Assembly (NCBI GenBank): GCA_024508915.1
Contig: JANINR010000146.1
Span: forward strand, 30,018-94,017
Length of the DNA: 64,000 nucleotides
DNA from: Lysobacteraceae bacterium
GTDB taxonomy: Bacteria > Pseudomonadota > Gammaproteobacteria > Xanthomonadales > Xanthomonadaceae
Reading direction: 5' to 3'
The notes beneath the pieces were generated by a model. It was not told where the DNA came from and ran no database searches. It was given only the letters and a program-made list of their open reading frames with translations. This document shows positions 1 through 2,008 of the stretch, piece after piece. Numbering within the stretch: position 1 is the stretch's first letter; every line of letters begins with the position of its first letter. Both the position numbers and the translations under genes were made by a program.

Positions 1-1753
1 TGTGCTCGCGGATCTTATAGCCGATCTTTTCGTTGCGCAAATCGGAATCGACCCGGAAGCCTTGATTTGTAAGGGTTTTCTGAACCTCGGCCACCCAGTC
101 CGCCTGGGCGTCGGTGATGTTCATCGCCACCGCCTGGACCGGCGCCAGCCAGGCCGGGAACTGGCCGGCGTGGTGCTCGATCAGGATGCCGATGAAGCGC
201 TCCATGGAGCCGACGATCGCGCGGTGCAGCATGACCGGGTGGCGCTTCTGGCTGTGCTCGTCCACGTACTCGGCGCCGAGGCGGCCGGGCATCATGAAAT
301 CCACCTGCATCGTGCCCAGCTGCCAGGTGCGGCCGATGGCGTCCTTGAGGTGGTATTCGATCTTGGGGCCGTAGAAGGCGCCCTCGCCCGGCAGCTCCTC
401 CCACTCCACCCCGGCGGCGCGCAGCGCCGAGCGCAGCGCCTCCTCGGCCTTGTCCCAGGTCGCGTCGTCGCCCAGGCGCGACTCCGGGCGCAGGGCGAGC
501 TTGACGTGCACGTCGGTGAAGCCGAAGTCCGCGTACACCTTCATCGCCTGCGCATGGAACGCCGTCACCTCGGGCTCGATCTGGTCCTCGGTGCAGAACA
601 CGTGGCCGTCGTCCTGGGTGAAGCCGCGCACGCGCAGGATGCCGTGCAGCGCGCCGGACGGTTCGTTGCGGTGGCAGGCGCCGAACTCGCCGTAGCGGAT
701 CGGCAGGTCGCGGTAGCTGTGCAGGCCCTGCTTGAACACCTGCACGTGGCCCGGGCAGTTCATCGGCTTCAGCGCATAGGTGCGCTTCTCCGACTCGGTG
801 AAGAACATGTTGTCCTTGTAGTTGTCCCAGTGCCCGGACTTCTTCCACAGCTCGACGTCGAGGATCTGCGGGCAGCGCACCTCGCCGTAGCCGGTGTCGC
901 GGTAGACGCGGCGCATGTACTGCTCGACGACCTGCCACACGCTCCAGCCCTTCGGGTGCCAGAACACCAGGCCGGGCGCCTCTTCCTGCAGGTGGAACAG
1001 GTCCTGCTGCTTCGCGATGCGGCGGTGGTCGCGCTTCTCCGCCTCCTCCAGCATCGTGAGGTAGGCCTTGAGGTCCTTGTCGTTGGCCCAGGCGGTGCCG
1101 TAGATGCGGCTCAGCATCTGGTTGTTGTGGTCGCCGCGCCAGTAGGCGCCCGCGACCTTCATCAGCTTGAACGCGCGCAGCTTGTCGGTGGACGGCACGT
1201 GCGGGCCGCGGCACAGGTCGGTGAACTCGCCCTGGGCGTACAGCGACAGGTCCTCGTTCGCCGGGATCGACTCGATGATCTGCGCCTTGTACTCCTCGCC
1301 CATGTCGCGGAAGAACTTCGTCGCCTCGTCGCGCGACTTCACGCTGCGCGACACCGCGTGCGCTTCCTTGACGATCTTCTGCATCTCCGCCTCGATGGCG
1401 GGCAGGTCCTCGGGGGTGAACGGGCGCTCGTAGGCGAAGTCGTAGTAGAAGCCGTTGTCGATCACCGGGCCGATCGTGACCTGCGCGCCCGGATGCAGGC
1501 GCTGCACGGCCTGCGCGAGCAGGTGCGCGGTCGAGTGGCGGAGGATGTCGAGCGCCTCGGGCGACTTGTCGGTGACGATCGCCAGCTCGGCGTCGCGATC
1601 GATGCGGTAGCTGGTGTCGACCAGCTTGCCGTCGACCTTGCCGGCGAGCGCGGCCTTGGCCAGGCCAGCGCCGATGGAGGCGGCGACGTCGGCGACGGTG
1701 ACGGGATGGTCGAACTCGCGGCGCGAGCCGTCGGGGAGGGTGATGGCGATCAT
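1..1753 (-). CDS. thrS: Threonyl-tRNA synthetase (3' end outside window)
   Basis: Charges tRNA-Thr with threonine in the cytoplasm. The minus-strand frame opens with [10 protein letters not shown] at 1753 and stays open to the window edge (584 codons). An N-terminal TGS domain comes first (about residues 1-60), then the editing domain with [11 protein letters not shown] near residue 75. The class II catalytic core follows, with [31 protein letters not shown] and the motif-3 arginine in [20 protein letters not shown]. The anticodon-binding domain begins after that and is cut at KIREH, roughly 50 residues short of the usual C-terminus. The frame is missing from the ORF track because it has no stop in the window. 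It lies downstream of tRNA-Val and a hairpin terminator that ends only about 20 bases before its ATG, which suggests attenuation (see the leader entries). In related genomes infC-rpmI-rplT usually follow, outside this window. Identification is firm. Confidence 0.97.
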
Positions 1754-1771: not shown

Positions 1772-1794
1772 AAAAAGAGCGCCCAGGGCGCTCT
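1772..1794 (-). terminator. Intrinsic terminator just ahead of thrS (attenuator arm)
   Basis: On the minus strand AGAGCGCC, loop CTG, GGCGCTCT forms a perfect 8-bp stem followed directly by a run of T. It lies between tRNA-Val and thrS, ending 19 bases before the thrS ATG. A plain tRNA terminator so close to the next start codon would block thrS, so conditional read-through is likely unless thrS has its own promoter in between, for which there is little room. Confidence 0.8.
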
Positions 1795-1814
1795 CTCTGC
1801 GGGTGCGGCCTGGG
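1782..1814 (-). promoter_or_regulatory. thrS: Putative antiterminator pairing in the thrS leader
   Basis: The minus-strand segment CCCAGGCCGC (1814-1805) can pair with GCGCCCTGGG (1791-1782), nine of ten bases with one C:C mismatch. The second arm takes up most of the terminator stem and loop, so the two structures exclude each other. The first arm begins 7 bases after the stop codon of the short Thr-rich ORF. A ribosome at that stop would cover it, while one stalled on the Thr codons would leave it free. Read from sequence only; no folding energy was computed. Confidence 0.55.
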
Positions 1815-1820
1815 GACGGT

Positions 1821-1847
1821 TCAGCGGTGGGCGGTGGTAGTGTCCAT
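1821..1847 (-). CDS. Putative thrS leader peptide MDTTTAHR
   Basis: An 8-codon minus-strand ORF reads Met-Asp-Thr-Thr-Thr-Ala-His-Arg-stop, with consecutive ACT ACC ACC codons. It sits between tRNA-Val and the terminator in front of thrS, the place expected of an attenuation leader. Its own Shine-Dalgarno is weak (GAG about 10 bases upstream). An in-frame GTG 11 codons upstream could give a 19-residue version (starting VARGNAGR) with GACGAGG just before it. The weak ribosome site is the main doubt. E. coli thrS is controlled by a translational operator instead, so this would be a different mechanism. Confidence 0.5.
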
Positions 1848-1933
1848 GTCGCACGCTCGGCCGGCGTTTCCGCGGGCCACCCTCGTCTGTCCCGGGTGCC
1901 TGGCCTTGCCACGCGCTCCTGGCGGAGACGGCG

Positions 1934-2008
1934 TGGTGGGCGGTACAGGGTTCGAACCTGTGACCCCTACCATGTCAAGGTAGTGCTCTACCGCTGAGCT
2001 AACCGCCC
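1934..2008 (-). tRNA. tRNA-Val(GAC)
   Basis: Minus strand from GGGCGGTTAGCTCAGC to an encoded CCA. The acceptor stem GGGCGGT pairs with ACCGCCC, the T arm contains GGTTCGAACC, and the anticodon stem ACTACC/GGTAG encloses a loop with GAC, read as valine. It is 75 bases including CCA. It lies upstream of thrS on the same strand and may share its transcript. Confidence 0.97.

Follow-up and report, generated by a model that had tools for sequence, protein, structure and literature searches.

A putative threonine-codon attenuator of thrS in Lysobacterales

Genes and signals upstream of thrS

The window analyzed here, a 64,000-nucleotide stretch of contig JANINR010000146.1 from a Lysobacteraceae bacterium, opens with thrS (1..1753), the gene for threonyl-tRNA synthetase (ThrRS). 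Like the leader elements and tRNA gene described below, thrS lies on the minus strand; its ATG is at 1753-1751, it extends past the window start, and its product is a full-frame ThrRS for which strong relatives were found. Upstream is tRNA-Val(GAC) (1934..2008), which stands outside the proposed switch and is probably co-transcribed with the leader in the window, given a promoter-like TTGTCC-18-TAGAAT at 2061-2032, before the tRNA gene. A run of GGCGGC/GGAGGC repeats occupies positions 2150-2220, close to the end of the neighboring gene.

Between tRNA-Val and thrS is a leader ORF, MDTTTAHR* (1821..1847), which reads ATG (1847-1845) GAC ACT ACC ACC GCC CAC CGC TGA (stop at 1823-1821) and thus places three Thr codons, ACT ACC ACC, at codons 3-5 (1841-1833). 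It is followed by an intrinsic terminator with a T tract (1772..1794), composed of AGAGCGCC-CTG-GGCGCTCT at 1794-1776, with 8 pairs and a loop of 3, and T residues at 1776-1772; folding gives it as a 12-pair stem. An antiterminator 5' arm, CCCAGGCCGC (1805..1814), can instead pair at 9 of 10 positions with GCGCCCTGGG (1782..1791), which lies within the terminator hairpin. The post-stop RNA has a predicted energy of -20.2 kcal/mol with the terminator and -17.5 kcal/mol with the antiterminator.

The original prediction of a threonine-codon attenuator at this locus had named this ORF, the 8-bp terminator and the alternative pairing, and each was recovered on the minus strand. The arm is separated from the stop codon by 6 bases, and 18 bases rather than the 19 first stated lie between the last T of the tract and the thrS ATG. 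A promoter between terminator and ATG would have spoken against attenuation, and no promoter-like site was found there in the window. The leader matched no Rfam covariance model, T-box or other.

Conservation of the leader and co-variation of its alternative stems

In order to survey the family, 80 named thrS loci were combined with loci from further relatives, giving 150 distinct upstream regions. A Thr ORF with a T-tract terminator was present in nearly all of them. Deduplication left 135 leaders, namely 124 of the window type, eight of a second type and three in which a hairpin termed P1 (see below) is deleted; codon counts refer to the 127 leaders of the window and P1-deleted types. Codon 3 encodes Thr in 127/127 leaders and codon 4 in 113/127, with nine leaders carrying a single Thr codon. 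The ORF is 5-9 codons long, most often eight (88/127). Codon 3 is ACT in 122/127 leaders, and since ACT makes up only 2.5% of the Thr codons in thrS of the same organisms, its fixation is not a matter of codon bias. The Thr codons are thus conserved along with the terminator among relatives, as the original prediction would have it. About six leaders (L069, L071, L115, L118, L123 and L124) keep the Thr ORF and its start region and have no recognizable T-tract terminator, a pattern that the attenuation model leaves unexplained.

The original prediction also anticipated compensatory changes in the stems, and these were found: the antiterminator arm and the loop of the terminator vary together. 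Each arm region was paired with the 5' half and loop of its own terminator, and then with those of the other leaders. Own pairs had a mean energy of -16.0 kcal/mol versus -13.8 (sd 0.20) for swapped pairs, and none of 5000 permutations was as good, a kind of test that lessens the effect of relatedness among leaders without removing all of it. Among 22 similarity-thinned representatives the values were -15.5 and -13.2 (sd 0.50; 0/5000), and co-variation likewise held using one representative per distinct loop. Matching changes can be seen by eye in arm/loop pairs such as CCCAGG/CCTGGG, CCCGAGG/CCTCG and CCCAAGG/CCTTGGG.

The conserved pattern extends across most of the order Lysobacterales (Xanthomonadales). 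Ten other families contributed 73 distinct regions, of which 46 have a Thr ORF with a terminator; none of the dinucleotide shuffles does. Occurrence differs by family: 22/26 regions in f188, 10/30 in f189, where it is concentrated in one genus, and none of three regions in f186 and f190. The encoded peptides include MNIWTRTTV, MKTTTTN and MNVSFRTTT. Own antiterminator pairs in these families averaged -14.7 kcal/mol against -10.2 (sd 0.40) when swapped, and -15.9 against -13.0 in GC-rich genomes alone, with 0/5000 permutations as good in either case. At the level of sequence, conservation, co-variation and the dinucleotide-shuffle controls exclude a chance origin of the leader.

The position of the arm was then compared with the reach of a ribosome. 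For ORFs of 5, 7 or 8 codons, the longest helix of the arm has its median start 33 bases from the ATG, counted from the A, and the stop-to-arm distance shrinks as the ORF grows (Spearman -0.45). The arm stays near +33 for ORFs of 5-8 codons because shorter ORFs have longer gaps. With a ribosome footprint of the usual size, a ribosome stalled at codons 3-5 would not obstruct the arm, and one that has reached the stop codon of an ORF of 7-8 codons would cover part of it. The geometry is weak for 5-codon ORFs, in which a ribosome at the stop would barely reach the arm. A trp-like segment 1:2 (pause or protector) hairpin, in which the conserved GUGCGAC would pair with sequence after the stop codon, scored no better than shuffles; we treat this hairpin as an optional feature of attenuators, not a defining one.

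Start signals of the leader ORF

A weak Shine-Dalgarno (SD) sequence had been the main doubt about the leader ORF, and it is answered by what we read as a split ribosome-binding site. A distal SD, GAGGGUG (1878..1884; AGGUG(G) in relatives), lies 5' of hairpin P1 (1859..1878; GGCC-C-GCG GAAA CGC-C-GGCC) and shares its last base with it. P1 is followed by a proximal SD, GAG-C-GUG (1852..1858), in which one base would be bulged; it lies four bases before the AUG and is part of the near-invariant GAGYGTGYGAC. An alignment of 69 leaders shows the same order of AGGUGG, P1 and GAGYGUGYGAC-AUG, and a GGTG-like distal motif is present in 122/124 leaders. Pairing of the distal AGGUGG (AAGGUGGCC) with the anti-SD gives -7.4 kcal/mol, and pairing of GAGYGUG with the same CACCUC anti-SD, one base bulged, gives -5.8 kcal/mol, from which we infer that GAGYGUG is a bulged SD.

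Two-sided compensatory changes were found at 7/7 P1 pairs, and 93.8% of P1 cells were paired, versus 81.6% after shuffling and 16-51% in slid controls. P1 has been lost in three genomes of different genera (L003, L012 and L155), which carry GAGGUGCGACAUG or AGGUGCGACAUG instead; the (G)AGGUGCGACAUG of the P1-deleted genomes is an ordinary SD four bases from the AUG. Because loss of P1 leaves an ordinary SD, and because both the distal and the proximal motif pair with the anti-SD, P1 probably splits the ribosome-binding site of the leader ORF.

An alternative frame, GTG CGA CAT, was rejected since GTG TGA breaks it in several genomes. A mini-hairpin over the start codon proposed by RNAalifold (CGUG-CGA-CAUG) has 3/4 pairs invariant. 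A covariance model built from the P1-start region found one convincing copy in its own genome; strong matches elsewhere were confined to the same order, and those read out sit at thrS. Reuse of the module at other genes was considered and rejected: the class-wide matches away from thrS were weak, and a second match that recurs within a single genus falls in a coding gene.

In the order as a whole the start signal varies by family, always serving a Thr ORF, and takes the form of SD-hairpin-AUG, a second hairpin, a plain SD or a leaderless start. The second hairpin type, CGTAGTTCGAAAGAACACGATCACC-ATG ACG CGA ACC, occurs in Dokdonella, Silanimonas and two further families, and the plain-SD type of other families is represented by GAGGTGGCACATG. 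In the leaderless type, 36/36 leaders have a -10 box whose end lies 6, 7 or 8 bases ahead of the start codon, the test having picked, among in-frame starts, one that fits a -10 box; 32/36 have at least 5 of 6 -10 matches at a spacing of 5-7, against a background of 2%. Judging from this promoter spacing, transcription is expected to start on the start codon or right next to it. The codon pair CGA ACT recurs in nearly all leaderless leaders of family f188 with Thr codons (L227, L228, L275-L304). Since CGA is read slowly elsewhere, the pair may sensitize these leaders to stalling.

Proposed mechanism, alternatives and related systems

Conserved Thr codons and start signals, a conserved terminator, a co-varying antiterminator and an arm about 33 bases from the ATG make it very probable that thrS is under the control of a ribosome-mediated transcription attenuator, as originally predicted. 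RNA polymerase would transcribe the leader while a ribosome, loading via the split site, starts on the eight-codon peptide. With ample charged tRNA-Thr, the ribosome would pass the Thr codons, reach the stop and cover the CCCAGGCCGC arm, so that the terminator forms and transcription ends before thrS. With too little charged tRNA-Thr, the ribosome would stall at codons 3-5 and leave the arm free to pair with the 5' half and loop of the terminator, and transcription would continue into thrS. From these sequences we infer that the ORF is translated, that termination and read-through take place in vivo, and that the outcome depends on how far tRNA-Thr is charged.

The leader ORF might instead act by translational coupling or Rho-dependent termination, and the few genomes that keep a leader without a T-tract terminator would fit such a route. 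We consider it very unlikely, because almost all the remaining genomes have a strong intrinsic terminator, with a loop that co-varies with the arm before it, and because coupling is ill-suited to a distance between leader ATG and thrS ATG that varies from 86 to 282 bases across relatives.

We give equally little weight to repression by ThrRS bound to the leader, at P1 or another element, with the ORF secondary. In E. coli, thrS has a translational operator in which ThrRS binds a mimic of the tRNA-Thr anticodon, and the high conservation of P1 would be in keeping with a similar arrangement. However, P1 loops are GNRA-like or variable and not anticodon-like, the ORF is kept in the three genomes that lost P1, and whole families without P1 keep the Thr codons and terminator. 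A hairpin with an NGU anticodon-like loop was found, mostly 14-24 bases before the thrS ATG, in 17/28 other gammaproteobacteria, in agreement with the E. coli operator hairpin (GTGATCT-TTCGTGT-GGGTCAC, 21 bases before the ATG), and in 3.5% of shuffles; at about 15-25 bases before the ATG it was absent from the other families of the order (0/76 upstream regions). Within the family, NGU-loop matches in 16/150 regions were the terminator loop, and one other. The terminator loop CCUCGUG was considered as a tRNA mimic, and this reading was rejected: the loop occurs in one loop group only, lies out of anticodon register and is explained by its complementarity to the antiterminator arm.

That the hairpin merely terminates the upstream tRNA-Val gene beside an accidental ORF is the least probable explanation, for although tRNA-Val is directly upstream in the window and within 500 bases in 60/150 family regions, 86 leader-bearing members have none within that distance, 47 of these have a strong promoter, in most cases some 57 bases ahead of the leader ATG, and the Thr codons and antiterminator are conserved with and without the tRNA gene.

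The putative thrS attenuator resembles those of proteobacterial amino-acid operons and of E. coli pheST (pheM) in joining a short ORF of cognate codons to an intrinsic terminator and a mutually exclusive antiterminator. It differs from them in its thrS target, its ORF of 5-9 codons, its control codons at positions 3-4 and its split ribosome-binding site, and from trp-type attenuators in that segment 1:2 pairing is unsupported. The E. coli operator acts on the same gene, but its split site is that of thrS itself and ThrRS binds its hairpin, whereas here it is the leader ORF that has the split site, and the mimic hairpin is absent from the order. The leaderless form in several families resembles the Sinorhizobium meliloti trpL attenuator, whose leader-peptide transcript starts at the AUG (PMC7298713), and differs from that alphaproteobacterial system in its codons and target, which for trpL are Trp codons and trpE(G).

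The class of mechanism is already known, and a Thr leader on thrS, for which the original prediction knew no precedent, has been proposed in Streptomyces lividans, where thrL is a candidate Thr-containing, leaderless leader peptide upstream of thrS (PMC8079986). That peptide, from another phylum, has 18 residues and two Thr (MKRVRPFLETTPGFVPAR), its termination is unclear, and we saw no sequence relation to the leader described here. A full-text literature search yielded no report of a thrS Thr leader for this order, and an earlier prediction is possible. What this analysis adds is that the leader is conserved in most of the order, with co-variation put to the test, that its ORF has what we read as a split site, that start signals have been exchanged within the order, and that control here contrasts with the tRNA-mimic operator of other gammaproteobacteria. 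In 2010 Lopatovskaya et al. reportedly published a survey comparing attenuation at amino-acid and aminoacyl-tRNA operons, which may list a thrS leader.

Two unrelated RNA devices appear to control the essential thrS in sister lineages: a tRNA mimic bound by protein in many gammaproteobacteria, and in most Lysobacterales a Thr leader read by a ribosome. The start signal has been swapped (hairpin-split, plain, leaderless) while the Thr codons and terminator stay, which provides a natural experiment on the requirements of an attenuator, and a very short ORF with the rare ACT fixed at codon 3 makes the theory of attenuator codon choice testable. One could speculate, though we think it improbable, that the order's ancestral control of thrS is Thr-codon attenuation, which took the place of the tRNA-mimic operator seen in other gammaproteobacteria, with the split-site hairpin adding a second input, e.g. 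bound ThrRS, to set the frequency of leader translation.

A gene closely similar to tRNA-Val also lies directly upstream of thrS in five other gammaproteobacterial loci (L247, L249, L250, L253 and L261), and the tRNA-Val/thrS linkage seems to be older than the leader. Outside the order, one of the 28 other gammaproteobacterial loci, L255 (genome G304), carries MTPRTQEITLPAF followed by an intrinsic terminator, possibly an independent Thr leader of its own on thrS. Finally, the ThrRS proteins of several Lysobacter and Luteimonas (L068, L070-L072, L074-L080) were compared with that of the window (P0001, residues about 60-240, as reference). Identity was 28-32% over residues 121-180, about 60-67% just around them and mostly 80-97% over the remaining C-terminal part, which suggests that the editing-domain region was replaced in these organisms while the leader stayed in place.
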